Shown: positions 38,460 to 64,000 of the stretch, piece by piece
Layout of the letters: every line of letters begins with the position of its first letter
Numbering within the stretch: the stretch's first letter is position 1
Assembly: GCA_020846145.1 (NCBI GenBank)
Contig: JADLEL010000217.1
Span: forward strand, 1 to 64,000
Length of the DNA: 64,000 nt
Reading direction: 5' to 3'
DNA from: Pirellulales bacterium
GTDB taxonomy: Bacteria > Planctomycetota > Planctomycetia > Pirellulales > Thermoguttaceae
The notes under the pieces: generated by a model
Databases searched by the model: none
What the model was told of the DNA's origin: nothing
The model's input: the letters and a program-made list of their open reading frames with translations, nothing else
Position numbers and translations under genes: made by a program

Positions 38460-39710
38460 CGCCATCGCCTTGGTGAGAATGGTGGCGGTGCTTTCGCGCA
38501 TCACGCGGGGATCGACCGGTTCGCCGGCCAGCAGGCAGCGGCGGACTTCCTTGCCGGAGATGAACAGCGGCTTCTCGTCCTTGTGGTTGTCCATCAGATC
38601 GACGCGGCCGATCGACTCGTAATAGGCGGCGAAACCGACGTTCAGCGGCTTGATCTGCAGATCGCCGCCGAGCCGGTTGAAAATTTCCTGGGCGTCGAAA
38701 TCGCCCCAAATGGCCGTGCCATCGTGGTACGGCGCATCGGCGTGCTTCCGTCCGATGACGATGTCGGTGAAGCCGAAATTCTGCCGGTAGATGCCGTGCA
38801 TCACCGCCTCTTTTGGCCCGCCGTAGAACATTTTGATGTCCAGTCCGAGCAGGATCACGCGGTCGGGCACCGATTCGCCGCGCGGTCCCCAAAGCGCCGC
38901 ATCGCTATCGCCCTCGCCCAACGAACGATTCTTGATGAGCGCCTCGTAGGTGTGCATCCGCACGTCGGCGTGAACGTCGTCGCCCTTGGTCTCGCCGATC
39001 AGCGGATTCAAGCATGCCCCGGCGTTCAGGCCTTGGCGAAGCAGCGTTTCGAGGCCGTAAACCAAGGCGTATTCGTGCGCCCGATGCAGCGGATTGCGCG
39101 TTTGGAAGGCCACCACCCGTTGCCAGCCTTTTTCGGCCAGCAGCTTGCGGACTTCGCGCGGCGTAAGCACGTATCGGGCGAATTCGGGGTGCTTGGGCTG
39201 CGGCAGGACCTCGATCGTGCCGCCCAACAGGTGCGTTTTGTCGGCGTCGCCCTTGAGGACCATGTCGCCGCCGGGATGATCGGTCCGCTCGGTCAGATAA
39301 ACGCTCTTCAAATAGCGCATCTTGTCCCAGGGAAAAATGTCATTAACGGTCAGCACGGCCACGACTTCCCCCTCCGAACTAATTAGTGCCGCTTTCTGAC
39401 CGACCTTGAGTTGCTTGGCCAACGATTCCGTCACCGGCAGCGAAAGGGGAATCGTCCAGGCGTAGAGTTTGCCGTTGTGTTCGATCACCGATTCATCGAG
39501 CACGCGCTGGTAAGTTGCGGAATCCATCGGGCCGGTCAAAGGGCTAAGCCCGCCGTCGCCGAAACGATAAACCGTCGAAAGATCGGCATCCGAGACGGGC
39601 ACTTTCGCCAGGGTTTTCGCCTCGGCGAGAAAATCGGCTATTTTCTCCGTCGGAACGGTGCGGCAAACAGGCTCACTCAAACCACCATGTGGAGGTATTA
39701 ACGAATTCAT
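38454..39710 (-). CDS. sat: Sulfate adenylyltransferase (ATP sulfurylase)
   Basis: The 418-residue enzyme forms adenosine 5'-phosphosulfate from ATP and sulfate, the first step of sulfate assimilation. It is the homo-oligomeric Sat type, not CysD/CysN. The N-terminal PUA-like domain (residues 1-170) is followed by the catalytic domain with [11 protein letters not shown] (about 199-209), the HIGH-like nucleotide-binding motif, and [11 protein letters not shown] near residue 320. Length is normal. It ends MAG-stop, with GGA and TAA provided by the RAYT element terminus. No adenylylsulfate kinase or reductase is adjacent. Confidence 0.95.
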
Positions 39711-46797: not shown

Positions 46798-47340
46798 ATG
46801 CATCCGATGCTGAATCACGATTCACAAAACGACTTCGTCACGCTGCTGGGACGGCATCAGTCGCAAGTGATGGGATACATATACTCCTTAGTGCACAATA
46901 TATCCGACACCGAGGACCTCTATCAGCAAACGTGCGTCGTCTTGTGGCAAAAGTTCGGCGAGTATCGTTTGGGCTCCGATTTCGGTCGCTGGGCTTGCGC
47001 CATCGCCCACTATATCGTCGCCAATCATTTGCGGCAGCAACGCACCCGCAGCCGCTGTTACAGCGACGAATTTCTCAACGAATATTTGCAGTGGCGCAAT
47101 GATCGCGAGGACTTGGAACTCACCGAAACTTACAACCAAGCCCTGAACGAGTGCATCGACTTGCTCGGCAAATCGGATCGGCAGTTCATCGAAGAGCGCT
47201 ATTGTTCCGGCAAAACGATCAAGGAACTCGCCAAGCAGTACGAGCGATCCGCGCAGAGCTTGTGCAATTCGCTGGGCAGGATTCGCAATGCGCTGCTGAA
47301 ATGCATCGAGCGCAAGCTCGTCTCGGAGGAACGATCTTGA
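46798..47340 (+). CDS. ECF-type RNA polymerase sigma factor (Rhodopirellula/Verrucomicrobium family)
   Basis: The 180-residue protein has sigma region 2 (LLGRHQSQVMGYIYSLVHNI, DTEDLYQQTCVVLWQKFGEY, FGRWACAIAHYIVANHLRQQ) and region 4 (FIEERYCSGKTIKELAKQYE, SLCNSLGRIRNALLKCIERK). It is of the family widely expanded in Planctomycetes and Verrucomicrobia. ATG 46798 is the most likely start; one three codons later is possible. Its stop overlaps the TTG start of the FecR/LamG gene, which fits a sigma and membrane anti-sigma pair. Confidence 0.93.
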   Translation: MHPMLNHDSQNDFVTLLGRHQSQVMGYIYSLVHNISDTEDLYQQTCVVLWQKFGEYRLGSDFGRWACAIAHYIVANHLRQQRTRSRCYSDEFLNEYLQWRNDREDLELTETYNQALNECIDLLGKSDRQFIEERYCSGKTIKELAKQYERSAQSLCNSLGRIRNALLKCIERKLVSEERS

Positions 47341-49022
47341 ACGCCGACCGCCCCCTCCCCCCGCACCTGCAATCGCTGTTCGACGCCGCCTGCGAGGAAA
47401 CGCTCACCGAAGCGCAGACGCTCGAACTCGTCGAGGCGCTGCGCGGCGACGAGCAACTCCGCCGCCGATTCTACCGCTACTGCTGCCTGCACGTCCAATT
47501 GCATTTCGCGCTGCGGGGCAAACGCGCGGAATCGATTTTTCCCTTTGCATTTCAGGAAAACAGTGCCGCGCCGGTCCTCGGCTTTCTGGGCGATCTCCAT
47601 CGAGGCGCGGCGGCGTTCGTCGGCAACCATATCTGGCTCACGCTGTTCCTCGCGTTTTCGATTCTCGGCGCGTCGCTGTTCGGCGTCGCCACTTGGCTGA
47701 TGCCTGCGCGCGAATCGCCGCTGATCGCCACGCTCAATGAAGTGCAAGCCTGCCGATGGGCCGAAGGCGGAAGTCAATCGTCCGCCGGCAGCTTGCCTTT
47801 ACGAACCGGCCACGTTTTGGATTTGGAATCCGGAATGGCCGAAGTGGTATATTACAACGGCGCGAAGGTGCTCATTGAAGGTCCGTTGAAATTCGAACTC
47901 AGGGGCGAGAGCGAAGGATTCCTGCATGCGGGCCGGTTGACCGCCCGCGCCGATACCCTTTCCTCCCGCGGTTTCGCCATCTCCACCTCCGCGGCGCGAT
48001 TCGTCGATCGCGGCACTGAATTCGGCGTCGCCGTGGATGGGCAAGGGCGGGCTTCGGTGGCCGTTTTCGCCGGCGCGGTCGATGCCGAGGCGAAAATCGC
48101 CGCGGGGCGTTGGACCGCTCCTGTCAAGATCGTCGAAGGCGAAGCCCTCGCTTGCGAAGGTTCGAAGTTCGTCGAACGGGCATTCAATCGGCACGACTAT
48201 CCCACGCTGCAACAACCGCCGCCGCCCGCGCTTGTTCAGCCTACCGAACAGCCCATGGCGCCACAACCGCCCATGCCGCCGCCCACTCTGGCAACCTTTC
48301 AACGCTGGACCGCGTTCAGCAAAACGCTGCGCAACCGCCCCGATCTGGCCGCGTATTACGATTTTCAGGCCGATCCGAGCGATTCCAAGGCCCTGGTGAA
48401 CCGCGCGGCGAGCGGTCCGGCGCTTAACGGCGTCATCGAAGGCGCAACGTGGATCAAAGGCCGTTTCGAAGGCAAGGACGCACTCGAATTCAAGCGTACT
48501 GTCGCCGGCGTGCATGTCAACTTGCCCGATGAGATGCAATCGGTCACCGTGGCGGCCTGGATCAATATCGACAGCTTGCCGCACACATATAACGGCCTGC
48601 TGATGTCCGACGGCTCGAAAAGAACGGGCCAATTCCACTGGCAGTTGGCCAAGTGGGGCGGAGTCGGCGCGGGGATGATCAACCCGATCGGCAGCGGTCT
48701 GAAAACCGTCAACCAATCACACATCACGAAATGGAACATCCCCCCCGACCGCTACCGCCGCTGGATCATGCTCGCCATGGTCTGCAACGCGGCGGCCAAT
48801 CAGTACGTCTGCTACTGCGACGGCACGGCGGTCGAATACCTGGAGTTTGTCCAGCGCAAGCCGTTCAAAATCGGACCGGCCACCATCGGCAATTGGAATC
48901 ATTTGGGCGAGGCCCAGAACGATCTCCGCGTATTCGACGGCCGGATGGACGAATTGATGATTTTCAATGCCGCCCTTTCGCCGCAGGAAATCCAGTGGAT
49001 ATACGAGGAGGGCAAACCCTAA
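47337..49022 (+). CDS. Membrane FecR-like / LamG protein, probable anti-sigma partner
   Basis: The 561-residue protein starts TTG at 47337, overlapping the sigma stop as TTGA, with GGAGGA about 7 bases upstream. Residues 1-98 are a cytoplasmic zinc-free anti-sigma-like region (LTEAQTLELVEALRGDEQLR). A transmembrane helix at 99-121 follows, then a FecR-like beta domain (about 160-285: AKVLIEGPLKFELRGESEGF, GRLTARA, TRG-type VDRGTEFGVAV), a Pro/Gln-rich linker (about 290-320) and a C-terminal LamG (about 340-555: AAYYDFQADP, VAAWINIDSL, DELMIFNAAL). Export of the LamG part lets it sense or bind external polysaccharide. The signal is unknown. Confidence 0.88.
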   Translation: MNADRPLPPHLQSLFDAACEETLTEAQTLELVEALRGDEQLRRRFYRYCCLHVQLHFALRGKRAESIFPFAFQENSAAPVLGFLGDLHRGAAAFVGNHIWLTLFLAFSILGASLFGVATWLMPARESPLIATLNEVQACRWAEGGSQSSAGSLPLRTGHVLDLESGMAEVVYYNGAKVLIEGPLKFELRGESEGFLHAGRLTARADTLSSRGFAISTSAARFVDRGTEFGVAVDGQGRASVAVFAGAVDAEAKIAAGRWTAPVKIVEGEALACEGSKFVERAFNRHDYPTLQQPPPPALVQPTEQPMAPQPPMPPPTLATFQRWTAFSKTLRNRPDLAAYYDFQADPSDSKALVNRAASGPALNGVIEGATWIKGRFEGKDALEFKRTVAGVHVNLPDEMQSVTVAAWINIDSLPHTYNGLLMSDGSKRTGQFHWQLAKWGGVGAGMINPIGSGLKTVNQSHITKWNIPPDRYRRWIMLAMVCNAAANQYVCYCDGTAVEYLEFVQRKPFKIGPATIGNWNHLGEAQNDLRVFDGRMDELMIFNAALSPQEIQWIYEEGKP

Positions 49023-50373: not shown

Positions 50374-50761
50374 CGCGATTTCGCGATCGATCGGCGTCGA
50401 AGATGAAAAATAATCGAGAGTTTTTTTAATGACCCAGCGCTCCCAGTTTGGTTCGGAAAACAACAAATCGAGGACCTCGAGAATCGTTCTTCCCGGAAAC
50501 AATTCTCAGCATTCTCCGATTCGCCCCTTCCGAACCGAAAACAGGATATTCGCGGAGGCCGAAAAAGGCCCGCGCCGCTAGTGGTCCGACAAGTATTAAC
50601 CGACGGATTCGCGTTGGAGCGACAGTTGCACTGTCGCCCCGGGGATGACGGTACAACTGTCATCCCCACGACCGGTCAAATAGCATTTGCAGGACCGCTA
50701 GGTCCGCGCTCGTACCATTGGTTTTTCGATCTTGTTTCAATTTTTCAAAAGGAAAACAGCC
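50374..50761. other. Repeat-containing intergenic region upstream of the giant PEP-CTERM gene
   Basis: There is no gene. It holds hairpins GCGACAGTTGCACTGTCGC (about 50618-50637) and GGGGATGACGGTACAACTGT...CATCCCC (50640-50666), and the inverse of AGCGGTCCTGCAAATGCTA at 50681-50700 shared with 21915-21936. The last 30 bases carry AAAAGGAAAAC, a weak Shine-Dalgarno before ATG 50762. Confidence 0.65.
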
Positions 50762-53700
50762 ATGAATCGATTTCTCGCGTGCGTATTGTTCTTTGTGGTT
50801 GCAGGATTGGTCGCCGCGACGCCTCTACGAGCCGCCACGTTGCCCATGAGTTGGATCGGCGCCACCGGCGATTTTACCGTGAGCTCGAATTGGGATCTCG
50901 GCATTCCCCCGCCCCTACCGGGCGTCGACACCTATTACCCTGATATTTCCAACGGCGGGACGGCAATCCTCAATACGACCTACGGAACCCCGCCCACCTC
51001 TCAGCCCCTGCGGCTGTATGTGGGAGGCAATTACGGTGGCAGTACGACGCCCAAATCGGGAACATTCGAAATTCAATCCGGGGGTGCCCTGCAGGTCGAT
51101 AGGTTGTATCTCGGAAATGAGACCGTCTCGACCGGAAAGGTAGCGGCTGCCCTTGGCAAATTGGTCATGACCGGCGGCACGCTCACCGTAGCCACCCAAC
51201 TTCGAATCGCCGGCGCCTCCCAGAGTATCGTCGATCTTAGCGGCGATGCCGCTCTCACGGTTCAAGGGACTGCCGACGCTTATGTGGGCGGAGGTTATAG
51301 TTTCGTGTCCGATGCCGCCACGAACCAGACCGGCGTCATCAAGCTATCCGGAACAAGCATATTCCAGCAAACCTCAAACAACATTTTCTTCGGCTGGGGT
51401 TCTAGCACTGCAGTTAATTCCGGTTACTTGTCACTTCAAAGCGGCACTACGTTCACCTCCGGAACTACCGGAACAAGCAATTTTATTACCGTGGGATATA
51501 GTCCGAATGCTACTTCGCCGGGCACGGGTGTCATCGATCAATTCGGCGGCACCTTTACGGCGGGGAATAGAGGGATTCGGATGGCTAACGGTACCGGTTC
51601 ATGGGGCGTCTATAACATGTTCGGCGGCACTTCTACTCCCAGCGCTCCCGACGGCGTGTACCAATTCAATGTGGGCTATCAAGGAGGAGGCACGGGGATC
51701 GTAAATGTGAGTGGGACCGCCCACATGACTTCCGCGATCACCTTTATCGGGGTTAGAAGCGCCGGGGGCGTCAGTACGGGAATCCTCAATCTCGGCGCGG
51801 TCGGGTCCACCAACGACGCGAGCATCTTCACGGCAAATGTAATAGGGCAGTACGAGGTCGCCTCCAAAGGGTATCTCAACTTCCACGGCGGGCTGCTGCA
51901 GGCGAACATCGATACTACTTCCTTCCTCGCCAACACGAATCCCATCGATGGAATCTATGTCTATGGCGAAGGCGCCAGGATCGACACGAACGGCCACAAC
52001 ATCACGATTGCGGCTAACTCGCCCATGTTGGCGCCCAGCGGCAGCGGCGTAACGAGCATTCCGGTAACCGCCAAGGGCAGCGGCTATAGCGGCGCGCCGG
52101 TGGTCCAAATCACCGGGGGGGGCGGCACGGGCGCTACCGCTTATGCCGTGATGGACGGCGACAAAGTCGATAGTATCGTCATTTCGAATCCCGGCGTGGA
52201 TTATACCTCCACTCCCACGGTGACTTTGGTGGGCGGAGGCGGTTCCGGCGTAACCTTGGGTGCCCTCTCTCTGGCCTCGAATTCCTCCGGCGGTCTAACC
52301 AAGTCGGGAACCGGAACCCTGACCCTCGACGCGGCGAATACCTACACCGGCATGACTACCGTCAACGAGGGAACGTTGAAAATCGCCGCGCCCGCCGCCT
52401 TGACCGGCTCGGCCACCATCAATGCCAACGCGACCTTGTCGATTGCGACCACCATGACCTTGAGCGGCCAAATTTTCGGCACGGCGGGCACGCTGTCGAT
52501 CGATTCCGGCGCTCCGACTCTTGCCGCCAACGCCTACTCCGGCACGGTCGCCCTCAACGGCGGCAATTTGAACTTGTCCGCTACGCATCCCGGAACTCTT
52601 TACGTCAACAACGGCTTTAGCTGGTATCATAACGGCGCCGGCTCCGTTGCCGGAACCACCACCGTGGGCAGTAGCATTTCGGCCACCAGCCAGGACGCCC
52701 TCCTCGGCGGCGCCGGCACCCTCGGCAACGTTACCGTGTTGAACAGTTACGGCAATTCGCCGGGCGTGAAAGGCGGCCTCGAAGCCGGTCAGAACGGCAT
52801 CGGCTCGCTGCACGTGGCCAACCTCACGTTTAACGGCGGTGGATTCGCGTATATCGGCAACGCCACGCAAGGCATCGGGGCCTACACCGGCAGCAACGCC
52901 GCGATCATCGCCGGCGGCACGTTGACCGTGGGCGCGGAAACCGCCGGAACCGTGCAATTCGATCTGGGCGGCGCGAACGTCGCCTCCGGCACCTACCACC
53001 TCATTCAGCACAACGGCGCGATCAATTACCTCAACGGCAGCGCGCTCTCGAATTTCCAGGTGGCGAACGCCGTCCTCTCCGCCCGGCAAACCGCTTCGTT
53101 CGCCGATAACGCGGGAGCGGGAAGCACGCGCTACCTCGATTACGTCGTCGTCGGATTTTATCCCGTCTGGACCGGATTGATAGGCGCAGCCACCGACGAT
53201 ACCTGGTATCAGAACGATACGGCGAAGAAGAACTGGAAGGCGAACACCGACAGCACCCCGCTATCCTTCATCGACGGAAACGTGCCGACCTCCGGCGTCG
53301 GCGACGCCGTGTTGTTCAGCGACGCGGGGGCGGGCCACACGACCGTCGCGATTCCCCTCAACGTCGCTCCGGTAACGGTAACCGTCGATAGCGCCCTGGA
53401 TTATGCGTTCACCACAAACGCCGGCGCCGGCATCGTCGATTCCACGTTTGCCACCGCGCCGAAGACCTTATTGATCAAGAAAAACAGCGGGATGTTGACG
53501 ATCTCTACTCCCAACACCTACTCCGGCGGCACGACCGTCGTCGATGGCACGATCCGCGTCGGCAACGCGACGGCCTTGGGCGCCGGCCCGGTCGGCTTCT
53601 TCCCCGGCGCCGCTTCGACCGCCAGGGTGCAAGTGAACGGCTATAACGTCGCCGTGAGCGGTCTTTCCACCGACGCGCTCACTCCCGGTTCGCCGGTCGT

Positions 53701-56197
53701 CGAAAACGGCAGCGCCTCCGCCGCCGCGTTGACGATCAATAACGCCGCCGACAATACCTATGCCGGCCTGCTGCAGGACGGCGGCGCGGGTTCGCTCGCG
53801 GTAACCTTCGCCGGTTCCGCCCCCTTCACCCTCGCGGCCGTCAACACCTATAGCGGCGACACCACGCTCAGCGCCTACGGCAACCTCAAGATCGGCATCG
53901 ATAATGCCCTGCCGCACGGCGCGGGCAAAGGGAACGTCGTCTTCGACGGCGGCGCCCTCGATATGAACGGGCGCAATCAAACCGTCAACGGCCTCTCGAA
54001 TACCGCTGCCGTGGCGACTATCACGAACACCGCGGCTGCCACGACGGGCACCCTGACCGTAGGCGATAACGATGCCTCGTCCAGCGTGTTCGCCTCCATT
54101 CTCGACAACGGCACCGGAAAAGTCGCCCTCGCCAAGATCGGCGTCGGCACGCTTACCCTCAACAACCCCGCCGACATCTACGGATTGCCCAGCACGTACT
54201 CCGGCGGCACCACGCTCACCACCGGCATTATCCAAACCGGCTACAATGCCGCCTTGGGAACCGGGAGCCTCGACATGGCCGCCGCAACCACGCTCGATCT
54301 GCGCAGCGCCGCGCTCAACATCGGCGCGCTCTCCGGCGACGGACTCATTACGACCACCATGGTCGGCAATGGCGCGGTCCTCACCGTCAACTCGCCCGCC
54401 GCCGCCAATACGTCTTTCGTCGGATCGATCGACAATGGCAGCGGCACCCTGGGATTGACGAAAACCGGCAACGGCACGCTGGCGCTCGGCTCGGCCAACA
54501 CCTATACCGGGGTGACGAAGCTCAGCCAAACGGGATCAACCACCACCAGCACGCTTATCGTGCCCGTCTTGGCCAACGGCGGCGAGACCAGCTCGATCGG
54601 CGCGTCGAGCGCCGATCCCGCGAACCTCTCGTTCAACGGCGGAGCGCTCAAATACACCGGCAGCGTTCCCGTAACCACCGATCGCGGTTTCTACATCGAT
54701 TACAACTGGACAACGATCGATACCGAAAAGGATTTGACCTTCACGGGCTTGGTTGCCAGCACCGAAGCGCACGGCGCGTTGACGAAGGCCGGCTTGGGCG
54801 CGTTATCGCTCACCAACGTCAACAACAATCCCTTCTTTTACCAACTGCAAGTGAGGCAGGGCGTGCTGAACCTCGTCGGCGACGCAACCACCGCCCCCAC
54901 TTACAAAAACCAATACGATGTCAATATCGGCTATAACGGGATGAACGCCGTCCTGAACCTCACCCACGCCAACCTGCTGATGACCGATACGACCGGCAGC
55001 AACGGAACTATCCGCCTCGGTTACGAAAACGATTCCTACGCCTATCTGCCCATCAAGGACGGCGTTTCGGTTACCAACACGACCGACGGCAGCCGCATCT
55101 ATGTCGGTCTGCCCAACGGCTCCGCCGGCGTCGTCGATCAAACCGGCGGCACCCTGATCATGGGCAGCCTGATCGCCCTCGGCGGCGATACGAGTGGGAC
55201 CGGCAACGGCTGGGGGGTTTGGAATATGACCGGAGGCACCGCCGAACTTAATACCAGACAAACCAATGGATTGAGGATCGGCAACGACGCCAACGGCGTG
55301 GGAATCATGACGGTCAGCGGAGCCGCCCATCTGACCACGCATACCAGAATCTATCTCGGCACCTATTCCACGGCGTCCTGCACGGGAATTCTCAACCTCG
55401 GCGCCGTCGGTTCCACCACCGACACGAGCGTCGTTTCCGCGCCCGATTTGGGAAGGTACACCACCACCGGGACCACCGGATTGCTCAATTTCCACGGCGG
55501 CACCCTCCAGGCCATCGCGGACAGCACTGCTTTCCTATCCAGTCCCAATCCCGTCTCGGCGACTTACATCTACGGCGAAGGCGCCGAGATCGACACCCAG
55601 GAATTCAATATTACGATCGGCGTGCCGCTCTCGAAACCGACCGGCCAAGGCGTGGCGAGCATCCCCGTCACCGCCGGCGGGAGCGGATACATCGGACCGC
55701 CGGTGGTCAAAATCCTCGGCGGCGGCGGCGTGGGCGCTACCGCGTATGCCGTGATGGCCGGCGATCAAGTCGATCATATCGTGATTTCGAATCCTGGGAC
55801 CGGATATACCTCCGAGCCGACGATCGTGCTGCAAGGCGGCGGAGGAACCGGAACGACGCTAGGGACTCTCGGCTATGTCGATAACGACGCCTCCAACGGA
55901 GGCTTAACCAAGTTGGGCGCCGGAACGCTCACCCTGAACGGCGCGCTGTCCTATACCGGCAACACCACCGTTGCCGCGGGCACGTTGAACGCCAACACCG
56001 GCATCAACACCCCGACGGCCACGGTTTGGGTCCCCGGCGGTTCCACGCTGAACGCCACCTCCCTCGCGGCCAACGCGCTTACCATCGGCGGCGCCTATGC
56101 CGCCGCTGCCGCCGTGCCGGAACCCGGCGCCTGGCTGATGATTATCGCGGGCTTGCTCGCGCTCGGCATTGCGCGGCGGCTTATCCGCCGCGGATAA
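50762..56197 (+). CDS. Giant autotransporter-type beta-strand-repeat protein with PEP-CTERM
   Basis: The 1811-residue protein starts MNRFLACVLFFVVAGLVAAT, a signal peptide. Nearly all of it is Gly, Ser, Thr and Asn-rich, with passenger-type repeats such as LTKSGTGTLTLDAANTYTGM and LTKTGNGTLALGSANTYTGV. A region of about 300 residues near the N-terminus, ending in GSGYSGAPVVQITGGGG, is duplicated near the C-terminus (GSGYIGPPVVKILGGGG). The end is AAAVPEPGAWLMIIAGLLAL followed by GIARRLIRRG, a PEP-CTERM signal, so it is exported and exosortase-processed rather than a true autotransporter (no beta-barrel). A structural or adhesive surface role is likely. The ATG at 50762 is favoured over one 10 codons upstream. 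Confidence 0.9.
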   Translation: MNRFLACVLFFVVAGLVAATPLRAATLPMSWIGATGDFTVSSNWDLGIPPPLPGVDTYYPDISNGGTAILNTTYGTPPTSQPLRLYVGGNYGGSTTPKSGTFEIQSGGALQVDRLYLGNETVSTGKVAAALGKLVMTGGTLTVATQLRIAGASQSIVDLSGDAALTVQGTADAYVGGGYSFVSDAATNQTGVIKLSGTSIFQQTSNNIFFGWGSSTAVNSGYLSLQSGTTFTSGTTGTSNFITVGYSPNATSPGTGVIDQFGGTFTAGNRGIRMANGTGSWGVYNMFGGTSTPSAPDGVYQFNVGYQGGGTGIVNVSGTAHMTSAITFIGVRSAGGVSTGILNLGAVGSTNDASIFTANVIGQYEVASKGYLNFHGGLLQANIDTTSFLANTNPIDGIYVYGEGARIDTNGHNITIAANSPMLAPSGSGVTSIPVTAKGSGYSGAPVVQITGGGGTGATAYAVMDGDKVDSIVISNPGVDYTSTPTVTLVGGGGSGVTLGALSLASNSSGGLTKSGTGTLTLDAANTYTGMTTVNEGTLKIAAPAALTGSATINANATLSIATTMTLSGQIFGTAGTLSIDSGAPTLAANAYSGTVALNGGNLNLSATHPGTLYVNNGFSWYHNGAGSVAGTTTVGSSISATSQDALLGGAGTLGNVTVLNSYGNSPGVKGGLEAGQNGIGSLHVANLTFNGGGFAYIGNATQGIGAYTGSNAAIIAGGTLTVGAETAGTVQFDLGGANVASGTYHLIQHNGAINYLNGSALSNFQVANAVLSARQTASFADNAGAGSTRYLDYVVVGFYPVWTGLIGAATDDTWYQNDTAKKNWKANTDSTPLSFIDGNVPTSGVGDAVLFSDAGAGHTTVAIPLNVAPVTVTVDSALDYAFTTNAGAGIVDSTFATAPKTLLIKKNSGMLTISTPNTYSGGTTVVDGTIRVGNATALGAGPVGFFPGAASTARVQVNGYNVAVSGLSTDALTPGSPVVENGSASAAALTINNAADNTYAGLLQDGGAGSLAVTFAGSAPFTLAAVNTYSGDTTLSAYGNLKIGIDNALPHGAGKGNVVFDGGALDMNGRNQTVNGLSNTAAVATITNTAAATTGTLTVGDNDASSSVFASILDNGTGKVALAKIGVGTLTLNNPADIYGLPSTYSGGTTLTTGIIQTGYNAALGTGSLDMAAATTLDLRSAALNIGALSGDGLITTTMVGNGAVLTVNSPAAANTSFVGSIDNGSGTLGLTKTGNGTLALGSANTYTGVTKLSQTGSTTTSTLIVPVLANGGETSSIGASSADPANLSFNGGALKYTGSVPVTTDRGFYIDYNWTTIDTEKDLTFTGLVASTEAHGALTKAGLGALSLTNVNNNPFFYQLQVRQGVLNLVGDATTAPTYKNQYDVNIGYNGMNAVLNLTHANLLMTDTTGSNGTIRLGYENDSYAYLPIKDGVSVTNTTDGSRIYVGLPNGSAGVVDQTGGTLIMGSLIALGGDTSGTGNGWGVWNMTGGTAELNTRQTNGLRIGNDANGVGIMTVSGAAHLTTHTRIYLGTYSTASCTGILNLGAVGSTTDTSVVSAPDLGRYTTTGTTGLLNFHGGTLQAIADSTAFLSSPNPVSATYIYGEGAEIDTQEFNITIGVPLSKPTGQGVASIPVTAGGSGYIGPPVVKILGGGGVGATAYAVMAGDQVDHIVISNPGTGYTSEPTIVLQGGGGTGTTLGTLGYVDNDASNGGLTKLGAGTLTLNGALSYTGNTTVAAGTLNANTGINTPTATVWVPGGSTLNATSLAANALTIGGAYAAAAAVPEPGAWLMIIAGLLALGIARRLIRRG

Positions 56198-56238
56198 ATC
56201 CGAGCTAAAGAAAAACTGACGAGAGTTGTTCCTTGGAC

Positions 56239-56274
56239 TTTCGCCGGGAGTCGCATTTCATGCTCCCGGCGAAA
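56239..56274. terminator. Perfect hairpin after the giant PEP-CTERM gene
   Basis: TTTCGCCGGGAG (56239-56250) and CTCCCGGCGAAA (56263-56274) form a 12-bp perfect stem around a 12-base loop, 42 bases after the stop. It probably ends transcription or protects the 3' end. It also argues that the next gene starts downstream, not at 56233. Confidence 0.7.
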
Positions 56275-56313
56275 ACCGTTTCGGCAAAAATTCACCTCGA
56301 CGCACCTGAAATC

Positions 56314-57744
56314 ATGAGCCAAATCCGCCCCCTACGAATTCGCAACTTTACGATCTCCGCTCGGTCTATCTCTTGCATCCCCGCTTTGGCTTTATGCTTG
56401 GCGTTCGTCGCGCCGGCGGGAACCGCCCTCGGCGCGGCGGTGCAGCAGACTTTCGGTTACAAGTCGAGCATCACCAGCGACGCCGGCGGCCCGTTGGATT
56501 TGTACGCGGAACTGAACTACGACAACGCCCGGCAGAATGCGCCCATCGCCGTGGTGATGCACGGTTATTCGGGGAGCACGGGGCACTTCGCCAACGTCCG
56601 CGCCAACGCCCAGCGTTTGCGCGACGGCGGCTTCTTCGTGATTTCGGTCGCCATGCGCGGACGCGAAGGCTCCGACGGCGTCCGCGATTCCGGCGGATTG
56701 GAAATCTACGACATTTACGATGCGGTCGAAAAGGCCAAGACCCAATTCGCTCCCTACGTCAATCCGAACAACATCTCGATCACCGGCTACTCGGGCGGCG
56801 GGGGAAATGCCATGTCGGCCTTGACCAAGTTTCCCGATTATTTCCGCGCCGGCTCCTCGTTCTTCGGCATCTCCGACTATGGCTTGAACACCCAGAGCGG
56901 ATGGTATTTCCTCGGCGCGGCCTCGAACCATCAGACGCAACTCCGCACGGATATCGGCGACCCGACCTTGGGGAACGCGGCCGTTACGGAGCGCTACCGC
57001 GCGCGGGCCTCGAATTTGGCATCGAAGAACAATCCTTACAGCGAAATCCACCTCTTCGTCAACGACAACGAACCGACCTGCCCGAAAATCAACGACTCGA
57101 GCTACCGCGACAGCGCGATCGCCGCCGCGGCTTATCCCGGCGAGTTCAACAACATCAATGTCCACATCGGCGTCGCCGGAACCTATAAGGACTTCAACAA
57201 TAACGGCATCAACGAGAGCCGCGAACAGCAGTATTGGCCGCACGGCTTTCCCACGGCCGATCAGCAATACGCCGCCGAGGCGTGGTATCTCGATCGCTTG
57301 CTCTCCGGCGCGATCCCGCAGCCGGTATTAAACGCTTCCGACCAGCTATTCATCGCCGGTTTCGTCAAGACCAAGCCCTTCGAGTTCTGGGTGGGCGACG
57401 GCCAGAACGCCGCCGGCGAACTTACTTATAACCTCGCCAATGACGAAAAATCCTTCACCCTCGGCATCCTCGGCGGCAATGCGGGCATCACCGGCCGGTT
57501 GAAAGTGGATACCGCCGACATGGCCGGGAAATTGGTGCGGGTCTCCATCAACGGAACCGCGGTGGACGAGTTTACGGGCGGAGGAATCTACCAGCGCGCA
57601 GGCATTCCCAATTCGAGCACGATCGTCCTTGCGGCCGTTCCCGAACCGGGGCAACTCGGCTTCATGTCCACCGGACTGGCCGGTTTGTTGATCTATCGCC
57701 GGCTGCGAAAACATTCCGGCGCGAATTGCCTCACGAGCCTTTAG
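56314..57744 (+). CDS. Secreted alpha/beta hydrolase with PEP-CTERM signal
   Basis: The protein has about 476 residues from ATG 56314 (MSQIRPLRIRN), with a signal sequence ALALCLAFVAPAGTALGAA. The hydrolase core includes IAVVMHGYSGSTGHFANVRA, GGFFVISVAMRGREGSDGV, the nucleophile elbow TGYSGGGGNAMS with the catalytic Ser, and a possible Asp/His in the SREQQYWPHGFPT segment. It resembles esterase/peptidase S9-like and depolymerase-type hydrolases. A beta domain follows, ending VPEPGQLGFMSTGLAGLLIY and RRLRK, a PEP-CTERM signal. The start is uncertain; an in-frame ATG at 56233 lies in the preceding hairpin. The substrate is unknown. Confidence 0.75.
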   Translation: MSQIRPLRIRNFTISARSISCIPALALCLAFVAPAGTALGAAVQQTFGYKSSITSDAGGPLDLYAELNYDNARQNAPIAVVMHGYSGSTGHFANVRANAQRLRDGGFFVISVAMRGREGSDGVRDSGGLEIYDIYDAVEKAKTQFAPYVNPNNISITGYSGGGGNAMSALTKFPDYFRAGSSFFGISDYGLNTQSGWYFLGAASNHQTQLRTDIGDPTLGNAAVTERYRARASNLASKNNPYSEIHLFVNDNEPTCPKINDSSYRDSAIAAAAYPGEFNNINVHIGVAGTYKDFNNNGINESREQQYWPHGFPTADQQYAAEAWYLDRLLSGAIPQPVLNASDQLFIAGFVKTKPFEFWVGDGQNAAGELTYNLANDEKSFTLGILGGNAGITGRLKVDTADMAGKLVRVSINGTAVDEFTGGGIYQRAGIPNSSTIVLAAVPEPGQLGFMSTGLAGLLIYRRLRKHSGANCLTSL

Positions 57745-58754: not shown

Positions 58755-61700
58755 TTACCGATACCAACCTTGCCCCGTGATCGGCTCGATTTTTTTGTGC
58801 GTGTTTGCGGCCTTTTTTTTCGGATAGGGCGGCTCGAATATCCAAGCGGCGGTCTGGTCGTGAATCAGAACCTCCGCCCGGCCGTCTTTGTGGAAATCGG
58901 CGATCCGCACGCCATAGCCGTCCGGCCCCGGTCCGGCGGGGCCGCCGTCATTCTTCGGTGGATCGGTTTCCGCCCGCGCGAAAGCGAAGGGATGACCACC
59001 ACCCATGTCGAATGCTTGCGGCCAATCCCAATCGCGCGTAATGAGGGCATCGCCGCCGTCTGGGCACCCTTGCGGATAGACCAGAATGCCTTCGCCGCTA
59101 TGATATTTTAGCGCGGGCGGGAAAAGCACATTGACGACTTCTCCGCGAGAATCGAGAAAGGCGATGTTATTTCGATTGCCCGCCGGGGGAACCGGTATTC
59201 CGGTGCGTTCCAAAAACGTATTTTGCGCCGCGCCAAGATGGTCGCGGCAGCAATAGATCGCCGTGCAGGCGCGCTTGTCGCCCGAGCGAAAATCGCCGAG
59301 CACCACATGTTGGGCATGGCCGAAATCCTTTTTCCATAGCAGTTTTCCATCGAGCGTTCCCATCTCGACGTCGCCGCCGGCGGCATAAACGACGGCGGCG
59401 GTCGGTGAATCCGCCAACCTGCCGACCTGCAACTGGTCCACGTGGTATTTCGTAACCGGCTGCCGGTGGTTTCCTTCCAGACGCCAGAGCCGCTTGCCGT
59501 CGGCGTCGTAGGCGTCGAAGCCGATGAGGATTTCCTCATTTCCGTCGCCGTCGATATCGAATGCCCGCGGGGAGTGCCCGATCCCGACCGCATCCGATAT
59601 GGTCGCAAGGAGGCGCAAATCGGCGGCTTCATAAAGGAGCGCGGGAGAGGCGTATGCGTAAGGCGGATAACCCTTGTCCGAGTTCTGAACCAGGAGACGA
59701 TTGCCCTTGCGCGTTGCGATGCGCCGTACGATGACATAGTTGTCTGCCCCGAGATCCGTCGATCGCTCGATCTTGCCGGTCGCGGCATCCAAGATCAATA
59801 AGGAGTTCCTTCGTATCGCGGCAATCTGGAGCTTGGCCCTATCCGAAATCAATCCGCACCAGAGCATCTGGTCGGCCACATGGCTCGTGGGACAACGCGA
59901 TTTCAGATAAGGTTCGCCGAGTCGCCAAAGCACTTTGCTTTCGAGGTCGATCGCCGTCAGGCAAAATATCCGCCGCTCCTCGGCGGGCACGGCGTACTTG
60001 GTTCCATCGAACACGTCCGACTGATAGCAACCGGGCGACTGCAAACATAAAAGTTCCAGCCGCCCATCGCCGTCGATGTCGGCGGGATAGACCTCGTTGG
60101 CGGCAAAGCCGTGGAATTTTATGTTTTGCACAGCCGGCAGCAGCGTTTGTTCCGGTATGTTTTGTCGAGCATTCGAGTCCGTCGCCGGTTGCGCGGATGG
60201 GAGCGGAGCCGATGATTTTCGCCATTGATGCATGGCGTCGATCAACCCCGGTTCGGAGTCGAAGCGGTTAAAAAGTTCGATGTTCAAGTGCGCGGGGGTA
60301 AAGACCCGGAGGTAATGGTTCTTCCACTCTTCGCGCAGCCTGGCGCCCGACGCTGCCAAATTATGAAGCTGCCCGTCTTCGTCGTTCCCCGCTTTTAACC
60401 GCGTTAAGGCCAGCGTCAACTCGAGGCGGTGTTGGATGCGGCGGCGCGAGAGATTCCAGCTACGCAGTTCGTCCCGATGCCGTTTTGCCGATCGCAAGGC
60501 CGACTCCCAGAGCGCGTTGTTGCCGGCGATTAGCCGCCGCGAGCTTTCCAACGACGCTCGTTGGCGTTTGAGACCTTGGCTCTCGATCGAGGCGATGAGC
60601 TGCGCGGCTTGTCGATCGGGAGTTAGGGACCAGGTCCGACTCGGCGGATCCCAAAAAAGCCGCCCGCTTTCGGCGGCGGGGAGATCGATCTTGGTTTCCG
60701 ACAAAGCTGCTATTGTCAGCGCGGCGGCCTCCGCATCCGAAAATGCGTATCGCTGCCGGAAGAATCGCTCGAGGAGCGCGGGTACTCCCGCCTCGCGAGT
60801 ATTCCAACCATACGCGGCGCAGGCATATTCCGGCAGGCAGACTTCATGCGGCGAACCGCGGTACGACCAACTCGTGATGATCGTCCCCGCCATTTTCGAT
60901 TGCACCGCTTGCAGGCAACCGGCGCGGATGTTTTCCGTATGCAGCGACATCCGGGGTAAATCGATGAGTTCGCCGGTGCCGCTGCGGGCGGCCGAAGCGG
61001 TAATGGCTTGAAAGCCGGCCTCCCGCAGCAGGGGCGAAACGAGAAATTCGTTGCTCCGATACCACCAATCGACGCCCACGACTTCGCGCGGCAATGTCTT
61101 GGCGGCATCCCGTATTTTGGCGGCAAGTTCCCGCGGTTGTTTTCGCAACTCGAACGGCGCAATCAAGTCGGTCCATATTAGCGGGGTGATTCCCCGCTTG
61201 AGGCAATAATCGACAATCCGCGCATAATGTTTTAAATAGAGGGCGCGAAAATCGCCGGCCGCCGCGCACCGCTTGCACGTGCCGGGAGTGATTTCGTCGC
61301 CGCCGACGTGCAATCGCTTGAGACCGGGATGCCGGGCGACGATCTCGTCGATCAGCGATTGGGCGAACGGCAATACGTCTTCGTTGGCCAGGCAGTAGCA
61401 ATTGCCCTCGTGCCCTTCCGAAAGCCGAATCCCGACCGGATCGTACGCGAGCACGTATTGCAAATGATTCGCGCATTGCATGAGGGGGATGATTTCCTGA
61501 TTGCAGTCATCGGCCGTGCGGCGAATGGCGCAGATTTCCTCTTCGGTGAAGGCGTCGGGGCGGGAGATCGCCGGATGTTTTTGGAAGGGGAACATGCCCG
61601 AGTATTCCATCAAGATCGCGTTGACCTTGTAGCGGGCGAGCGTCCGCATCAGCCGTTGCACGTAGGCCGCGTTGTACTGCTGCGCGGTCATGTCGATCTG

Positions 61701-62252: not shown

Positions 62253-64000
62253 TCATCGATGGAGGGACGAAATTTCCCGAATTTGCCTCACCTCATCCGC
62301 TTCCAGCGCCCGGCCGTACAGACGCAGATCGGACATGGCGCCGGTGAAGTAGTTCTGTGCTCCGAAACCGATCTTCAGCGGTTCGGCATTCGTTAAATCG
62401 AAGATTCGATCTTCGGAAGCGGTGCACGAGGCGGAAAGCTCGCCATTGACATAGAGCCGCAGTGCCTTGCCTTTGCGCACCGCGGCCAGATGCGTCCAAC
62501 CGCCGCCGATATCGCGCTCGTGGCTGACGACTTGTCCGGCGCGGATCGAGTAAACGCGGCCCAGCGTCCCGTCCGGGTCGCGGTCTTCGGACATGCCGTA
62601 AACCGAGCCGGTCCCGGCGTAAAGGATGCCTCGATAAGAGGCCATAACGGTAACTCGATACCAGGTATCCGCGATCGTGCTGTCGTACGGGGTATTATGG
62701 GCCAGGCTCTTCAACAGGGTCCACTTCGCGTTGTCTTCGTAACGATAGACCTCGGCATGGGGAATCGCGCCGGCGTAGAGTTTGCCGTTATGCACGGTGA
62801 GGTCGTTGATTTCGTTGACCTCGCGTTCGCCTTCCTTGAAAGGCGCGCCCAAGCGGCCGTCGATGGCCCATTTTTCGCCACCGTCGTAGCGCAGCGCATA
62901 GCCTTGCGGCCAGGTGCCGATGTACATCAGGCCGCGGTAGGCGTCGATGCTATGAATCTGCGAGACGCCGAACGGCATCTTGCCGATGCAAGTCCACTTT
63001 TTTCCGCCTTCGTACTTGAAGATGCTGCCGTGGGTTGCGCCGTAGAGCGTGCCGCCGAAGGGCAGCAAATTCTCGAAGTTCTCGCCGTCGGGCGAGCCGC
63101 AATCGATCCATCCGGCGCCGGTATATCTGAAGCATTTACCGGGGACCGCGTTGTTCCTTCCCAGCTTATCCAATCCGAGGTAAAGCTCGCCGTTAAAACT
63201 CGCCATGCACATTACGCGCGTGCTTTCGCCGACCTGGCCCAGGTCGCGCCACTTCGTGCCGCCTTCGTAAACGAAGACGCGCGGTTTTGCGGCGGGGGCA
63301 AATCCCTTACCCCGTTGCGCGCCCCAGGCGCGGCGTCTGCTCCAGATGCCGGTGCCGGCGTAGAGTTTCCCCCGATGAACGTAGAGCGACTGGACGGTAA
63401 GATGGTTGGGATCGTTTCCCAATCGGCCGCAATCGATCCATTTTCCATTCCCCTCCCAACGATAGACGCGGCAGGCATTTTGGGGATCGTCCGCGCCGGC
63501 GATGCCCGCATACAATTGCCCCTCGAACACCACGAGGCTCGTGATCAAGGCGTTGGTCGGGTCGGGCTTGCCGCAATCGGTCCAATCGCTTAAATAGCCG
63601 TCGTCGATGCCGAAATGGACGTGGCGGGTGTCGCACATCGAAGAGTATCCCGAGGCGCTGCCGGCGATGTGGAAGTTGATGCCGCGACGTTTCGCGCCGT
63701 CGAACTTGCTGAGAATATCGCCGAAGACGTTGGTCATCGTCGCTTCCGGCTTCACCCAGACGCCGATCGAGAAATCTTTTGTGCCCAGGTGCAACGAGGC
63801 GTTGTCCGGCACTTCGATCCAGCCGTCGCGGCCGTTGAACGAGGCGGCTCCCCGGGCGGAACCGTCCGGCCCATCAGCAAACGAAACATTTCGGCCCGCG
63901 CCGTGATTCCCTTTCCCCGAGTAGTCCTGGCAGTCGCCCTGTAACTTCCAATGTCCGATGAGTCCATCGGAAAGCTTGGGATTCTCGCCGGCGAAAGACG
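62253..64000 (-). CDS. LamG protein with a beta-propeller-like insertion (5' end outside window)
   Basis: The frame is open from the window edge to the stop at 62253, giving at least 582 residues, so the start is beyond 64000. The visible N-terminal part is half of a LamG/concanavalin fold (LIGHWKLQGDCQDYSGKGNH, GAASFNGRDGWIEVPDNA, FSIGVWVKPEA). About 380 residues of repeated blade-like units follow (LYAGTGIWS, GELYLGLDKL, GTLYGATHGSIFKYEGGKKW, GKLYAGAIPHAEVYRYEDN). The sequence then returns to LamG-like strands (GGWTHLAAVRKGKALRLYVN, GAMSDLRLYGRALEADEV). It probably binds polysaccharide and lies immediately upstream of the GH20 gene, likely in one operon. Confidence 0.8.
   Translation of the reverse strand, partial: SFAGENPKLSDGLIGHWKLQGDCQDYSGKGNHGAGRNVSFADGPDGSARGAASFNGRDGWIEVPDNASLHLGTKDFSIGVWVKPEATMTNVFGDILSKFDGAKRRGINFHIAGSASGYSSMCDTRHVHFGIDDGYLSDWTDCGKPDPTNALITSLVVFEGQLYAGIAGADDPQNACRVYRWEGNGKWIDCGRLGNDPNHLTVQSLYVHRGKLYAGTGIWSRRRAWGAQRGKGFAPAAKPRVFVYEGGTKWRDLGQVGESTRVMCMASFNGELYLGLDKLGRNNAVPGKCFRYTGAGWIDCGSPDGENFENLLPFGGTLYGATHGSIFKYEGGKKWTCIGKMPFGVSQIHSIDAYRGLMYIGTWPQGYALRYDGGEKWAIDGRLGAPFKEGEREVNEINDLTVHNGKLYAGAIPHAEVYRYEDNAKWTLLKSLAHNTPYDSTIADTWYRVTVMASYRGILYAGTGSVYGMSEDRDPDGTLGRVYSIRAGQVVSHERDIGGGWTHLAAVRKGKALRLYVNGELSASCTASEDRIFDLTNAEPLKIGFGAQNYFTGAMSDLRLYGRALEADEVRQIREISSLHR

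Follow-up and report, generated by a model that had tools for sequence, protein, structure and literature searches.

A seven-bladed beta-propeller predicted to lie within a split LamG domain in a patchily distributed family of bacterial proteins

At the edge of a 64,000-nucleotide stretch of a Pirellulales genome (contig JADLEL010000217.1, positions 1 to 64,000; hereafter the window) lies a gene for a protein with LamG strands at both ends and repeated blades between them, raising the questions of whether a beta-propeller can be nested inside a single LamG domain and what such a protein might do beside the GH20 gene that follows it. The window edge, at base 64000, cuts the gene, and reading of the contig places the whole gene at G000:C217:62253-64055. 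The complete protein is 600 aa long, and its N terminus, MKNYDKFLALGLSTILLASSFA, looks by eye in the translation like a signal peptide with no nearby cysteine, suggesting that the protein is secreted. Residue numbers given here are those of the 581-residue protein encoded within the window, not of the complete 600-aa protein. The features of the locus are collected in Table 1.

Table 1. Features of the LamG/propeller locus and the adjoining GH20 gene, in window coordinates.
Feature	Position	Strand	Basis or remarks
LamG/propeller/LamG gene	62253..64000	-	ORF and full-contig read
N-terminal LamG half	63597..63965	-	residues 12-134; PF13385 positions 1-54; beta strands, pLDDT mostly >90
Nested seven-bladed beta-propeller (predicted)	62541..63596	-	residues 135-486; blade HMM, AlphaFold, VIA-align
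C-terminal half of the same LamG domain	62259..62540	-	residues 487-580; PF13385 positions 77-150
Gln347, blade 5 channel rim	62958..62960	-	invariant in 90 homologues; first residue of strand in model
Glu396, blade 6 channel rim	62811..62813	-	invariant in 90 homologues
Arg448, blade 7 channel rim	62655..62657	-	invariant in 90 homologues
GH20 gene, 1152 aa	58755..62213	-	GH20b and GH20 catalytic domain, GGDE motif
FG-GAP/PQQ-like C-terminal tail of GH20 protein	58755..60143	-	PF13517 E 3.8e-9

When the whole protein is searched against Pfam, Laminin_G_3 (PF13385) is the only model to exceed its cut-off, and the middle 349 residues match no Pfam family; the annotation reads simply 'LamG domain', leaving most of the protein unaccounted for. 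Searched separately, the N-terminal 136 residues score 19 bits and the C-terminal 101 residues 61 bits, covering the complementary profile positions listed in Table 1. Joined in silico, the two halves match positions 1-150 of the 151 in the profile with 79.6 bits, above either half and above the cut-off of 27.6, which bears out the expectation that they make up one complete domain and rules out two separate LamG domains. A profile built from fifteen LamG domains spliced in this way aligns across the junction to the solved LamG-type structures 4qvs (14-220 of 223) and 6hox (12-219), and PF13385 is matched by all 58 members of the family tested. Other LamG_3 domains of the same genome serve as an internal control and are contiguous, for example on contig C220, where positions 1-150 fall within 489 bases. 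By comparison, a paralogue of the LamG/propeller gene on contig C198, 68% identical, has its LamG_3 match split into two stretches that lie about 980 bases from each other and cover positions 1-55 and 23-151. An ordinary C-terminal LamG_3 domain is also found in the window itself, at 48534-48995, within a protein (47151-49022, plus strand) that looks FecR-like by eye. An identification as TafC, offered by NCBIfam, was rejected at 48.7 bits against a cut-off of 410; the shared LamG domain is probably its sole cause.

The region between the LamG halves had been put at about 380 residues, which proves too long: the insert is about 350 residues (135-486). Its repeats begin near W139, W187, W250, W297, W335, W377 and W426, and each continues into a Gly-x-Leu-Tyr-Ala-Gly-like strand. 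A blade HMM, which counts repeats but does not prove them since it was trained on family members, gives a count of seven in 96 frames out of 103, fragments included. Most of the frames without seven blades are fragments or have a single undetected blade. In one variant (L053:3-1166:+) four blades lie between the LamG halves, which may reflect an assembly error in the one metagenome contig that carries it or else a genuine deletion of three blades. AlphaFold, supplied with an alignment of 58 sequences (the window protein and loci from one collection scan), gives a model of the window protein with pLDDT 90.9 and pTM 0.93, and a homologue from Cyclobacterium (Bacteroidota), approximately 36% identical, is modeled with the same strand order and architecture (pLDDT 89.3, pTM 0.86). 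Alignment of residues 135-489 with virginiamycin B lyase (Vgb, 2z2o) by VIA-align yields a Z of 28.6 and an rmsd of 2.6 over 285 aligned residues, and the Cyclobacterium model reaches a Z of 29.6 against seven-bladed propellers; these alignments bear on the propeller and barely test the LamG part, and because many such propellers score within about 1 Z of one another, the alignments speak to fold and not to function. The repeated blades of the original prediction can therefore be counted as exactly seven, by both the HMM and AlphaFold, and neither model shows two complete LamG domains or lacks the propeller. Taken with the profile splice and with conservation of the split across phyla, this confirms, at the level of profiles and predicted structures, that the propeller is nested in the LamG domain. 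The relative placement of the two domains is as predicted by the models.

Comparison with Kelch proteins indicates how such an insertion might be accommodated. The strand that carries the first Trp would take the outermost place in the last blade; the propeller would then close, with its two ends adjacent. From the repeat register and the secondary structure we infer a closed seven-bladed propeller with Velcro closure. With its entry and exit side by side, the propeller would fit into a loop of the LamG domain with neither fold broken.

Relatives were found at 143 loci in one collection scan, the best 80 of which are co-linear, full-length members. According to record titles, homologues occur in Planctomycetota, Armatimonadota, Acidobacteriota, Chloroflexota, Gemmatimonadota, Latescibacterota, Hydrogenedentota, Verrucomicrobiota, Bacteroidota and Hinthialibacterota, although most of these records are metagenome bins whose contigs may be misbinned. 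Two cultured strains, Cyclobacterium xiamenense and Lacipirellula limnantheis, also carry homologues. The split LamG arrangement is kept in 90 homologues from about ten phyla, the paralogue in the same genome included. Of 60 relatives, 14 have a match to the propeller profile, in some cases through a sister family described below, and a search for the whole family in 119 genomes sampled from across the phylum found it in 5, indicating that the family is widespread but patchy. In one Acidobacteria bin (L060:7185-10578) two members lie in direct tandem. A literature search yielded no account of a propeller inside a LamG domain or of this family, which is weak evidence of absence given that subscription papers lay outside the search; the family is apparently undescribed.

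In propellers, the innermost strands start at the rim of the central channel. The position compared among the 90 homologues was, in each blade, the one nine residues ahead of the innermost strand's terminal Gly. Gln347 in blade 5, Glu396 in blade 6 and Arg448 in blade 7 are each 100% conserved, and all three fall at the start of innermost strands in both AlphaFold models. At the equivalent position of blade 4, 88% of homologues have an Arg, which the window protein does not, and in blades 1-3 the 90 homologues show no residue preference. At position 349, 88% of the homologues have Tyr and 11% have His. The majority clade has a near-invariant set of residues, E-S-N-R-Q-Y-E-M-R-W, at ten positions, whereas ten members, including the window protein, retain the Gln, Glu and Arg together with His349 and, in most cases, Asn398 and Thr450. 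A branch with SH-aLRT support of 98 separates these ten from the other members. A sister family (L156/L157/L160/L163), which has no Pfam name and in which Pfam recognizes no LamG domain, is co-linear with this one over 425 columns in an HMM-HMM alignment (98.9%, E 1e-17, approximately 16% identity), and according to that alignment it has Gln, Glu and Arg at the same three rim sites. The invariant polar pocket probably binds surface sugars or acts on them as an active site. Members of the sister family are fused to GHL10 (L183:4973-7738:-) and to Ceramidase_alk (L182:3788-6853:+). The latter fusion adjoins another Ceramidase_alk protein (L182:1143-3479:-) with an ordinary C-terminal LamG_3 match (positions 44-151), such that the same partner occurs at this locus with and without the propeller.

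The original prediction also suggested a paired secreted glycan-binding system, the gene being next to a GH20 enzyme with an FG-GAP/PQQ-like tail. Such a neighbour is indeed present in the window. The GH20 gene is on the same strand, some 40 bases downstream, and its product is a predicted enzyme that matches PF02838 (E 9.9e-21) and PF00728 (E 4.4e-7) above their cut-offs and has the Asp-Glu pair of the GGDE motif in its translation. A GH20 gene also follows the paralogue on contig C198, but its 683-aa product lacks the FG-GAP tail. Two of the six GH20b proteins of this genome thus adjoin the two LamG/propeller copies; since the two sets are paralogous pairs, they represent one event that was kept and not two. 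Among 93 loci, a GH20 neighbour was found at only four: both copies in this genome, one relative (L036/L056) and one Hydrogenedentota locus (L130), where GH20-like genes flank the LamG/propeller gene on the opposite strand. This rules out GH20 as a general partner and confirms the pairing as specific to a lineage, and because most of the family lacks a GH20 neighbour, cooperation with GH20 cannot be its general function.

Other neighbours elsewhere include DUF4838, ceramidase-like, DUF2961 and DUF1501 genes and more. DUF4838 genes adjoin members at two loci (L042 and L043), one of them with an N-terminal GH67N and GH20b match. At a third (L051:8597-10783:-), a C-terminal LamG half that is 68% identical to that of the window protein runs into DUF4838 with no intervening stop or Met, a fusion whose start is cut by the contig end. 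Ceramidase-like genes (PF04734) are nearby in seven loci. DUF1501 and PSCyt-type neighbours are simply common in planctomycetes. The paired glycan-binding system is thus partly supported: the GH20 pairing is real here but absent at most loci, and the fusions favour a general link to hydrolases. A link to secreted hydrolases, with a partner that changes between loci, is supported.

Prolyl oligopeptidase is a protein in which a seven-bladed propeller is inserted in an alpha/beta-hydrolase. It provides a precedent for a seven-bladed guest propeller, but its host is a protease domain and not a lectin-like jellyroll. A two-domain description of it by cryo-EM is available (PMC12325989). In the Vibrio cholerae sialidase (GH33), a lectin-like domain is inserted in a 'type 2' Asp-box propeller (PMC2716378). 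There, as here, a beta-propeller and a lectin-like jellyroll are joined by insertion in one secreted protein, but the topology is inverse, with a propeller that lacks repeated Asp-boxes placed in the LamG domain. An Asp-box search of the 90 homologues found none in 61 and one in 29, never repeated. In addition, GH33 propellers have six blades and an arginine triad, whereas this one has seven blades and only one Arg among its three invariant rim residues. The absence of repeated Asp-boxes and the number of blades rule out a GH33 sialidase. The best whole-length Foldseek matches (PMC8865650) contain the same two types of fold, arranged in tandem and not nested; they superpose with an rmsd of ~19-32 A over the whole length, and no sequence evidence of common descent with them was found. 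The closest single-domain structure to the propeller, Vgb, whose active site contains a catalytic His, is free-standing and approximately 9% identical, and its rank is tied with many others. Kelch propellers (KLHL20, KEAP1 and the designed SAKe) are the best sequence-profile relatives of the blades, and a profile search of the PDB retrieves Kelch chains at E ~1e-8. However, Kelch propellers have six blades and a di-Gly motif, in place of the seven blades and Leu-Tyr-Ala-Gly-Thr seen here; the di-Gly motif is absent from 86 of the 90 proteins and present as one copy in 4, and among 58 members one matches Kelch_6 in Pfam and six weakly match Kelch_FKB95. This family offers a clear natural example of an entire seven-bladed propeller being inherited as the guest of a lectin-like jellyroll, in a layout that is fixed across about ten phyla and is the reverse of that in the lectin-in-propeller sialidases.

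What, then, might the protein do? We lean, by a narrow balance, toward a secreted two-domain recognition protein with a pocket for glycoconjugates in the propeller, a LamG host and a hydrolase partner. The host would be the LamG domain, a concanavalin A-like jellyroll, with the complete Kelch-like propeller inserted in one hairpin, whose first strand ends in HVHFGIDDG and whose second is GQVVSHERD. On one face of the propeller, the three invariant residues and probably Pro-containing loops of blades 5-7 would form an asymmetric conserved pocket that may bind an extracellular glycoconjugate through a sugar or some other polar moiety, a class of ligand suggested by the partners. The LamG domain may provide a second contact or anchor the protein, and in this lineage the protein may work alongside the secreted GH20 enzyme, whose gene probably shares its operon.

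An invariant polar triad of this kind, kept across about ten phyla and in the sister family, is also typical of an active site, and the propeller could itself be an enzyme, such as a sugar or uronate lyase, a hydrolase or an epimerase, with Gln347, Glu396, Arg448 and Tyr/His349 as catalytic residues and the LamG domain as carbohydrate-binding partner. Tyr/His349 and the wider residue set of the majority clade would fit such a role, as would a top structural match that is a propeller lyase, although neighbouring matches are within about 1 Z of it. Nevertheless, no His is invariant within the propeller among the 90 homologues and no catalytic signature is recognized; neither Pfam nor NCBIfam assigns the propeller to an enzyme. 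Hydrolase domains are, besides, already fused to members of the sister family, an arrangement that fits an accessory role better. We consider catalysis by the propeller possible but doubtful. The more specific proposal that it is an unrecognized carbohydrate-active enzyme is somewhat less likely again; it would make the Gln/Glu/Arg and Tyr/His site that of a new CAZyme family in about ten phyla, with the LamG host as its built-in binding module. Alternatively, propeller and LamG could serve protein contacts in a cell-surface scaffold or adhesin, for example by docking GH20 or in an envelope complex, as Kelch-like propellers, including the profile matches KLHL20 and KEAP1, often bind proteins and the partners differ between loci. 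Yet partners that are not conserved are difficult to reconcile with a dedicated docking surface, and conservation is confined to a few polar residues around the channel rim and does not extend over a broad surface, all of which makes this idea improbable. That hmmscan splits the LamG match of the full protein into two stretches might be taken to mean two partial domains around a propeller, or an artefact of prediction or assembly, but complementary halves that join into one domain, a layout shared by 90 homologues from independent genomes and the agreement of two AlphaFold models render this very unlikely indeed. The invariant triad, spread over three neighbouring blades, offers a precise and testable hypothesis for the ligand or substrate of proteins whose host bacteria, in many cases, degrade complex glycans.

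Several other genes around the locus are worth recording. On the plus strand of the window, positions 50732-56197 encode a protein of 1821 aa that has PATR repeats of the autotransporter type and ends in a PEP-CTERM-like C terminus, followed at 56233-57744 by a secreted alpha/beta-hydrolase (Peptidase_S9/S15 match) that likewise has a PEP-CTERM-like C terminus. A short DNA match at 39446-39479 is due to chance and sits within a gene that reads as sulfate adenylyltransferase. Just past the window end, upstream on the same strand as the LamG/propeller gene (L004:6194-10664), are genes for a GFO/IDH/MocA oxidoreductase, a 629-aa protein and a xylose-isomerase-like TIM barrel, which together look like a sugar-catabolism cluster.
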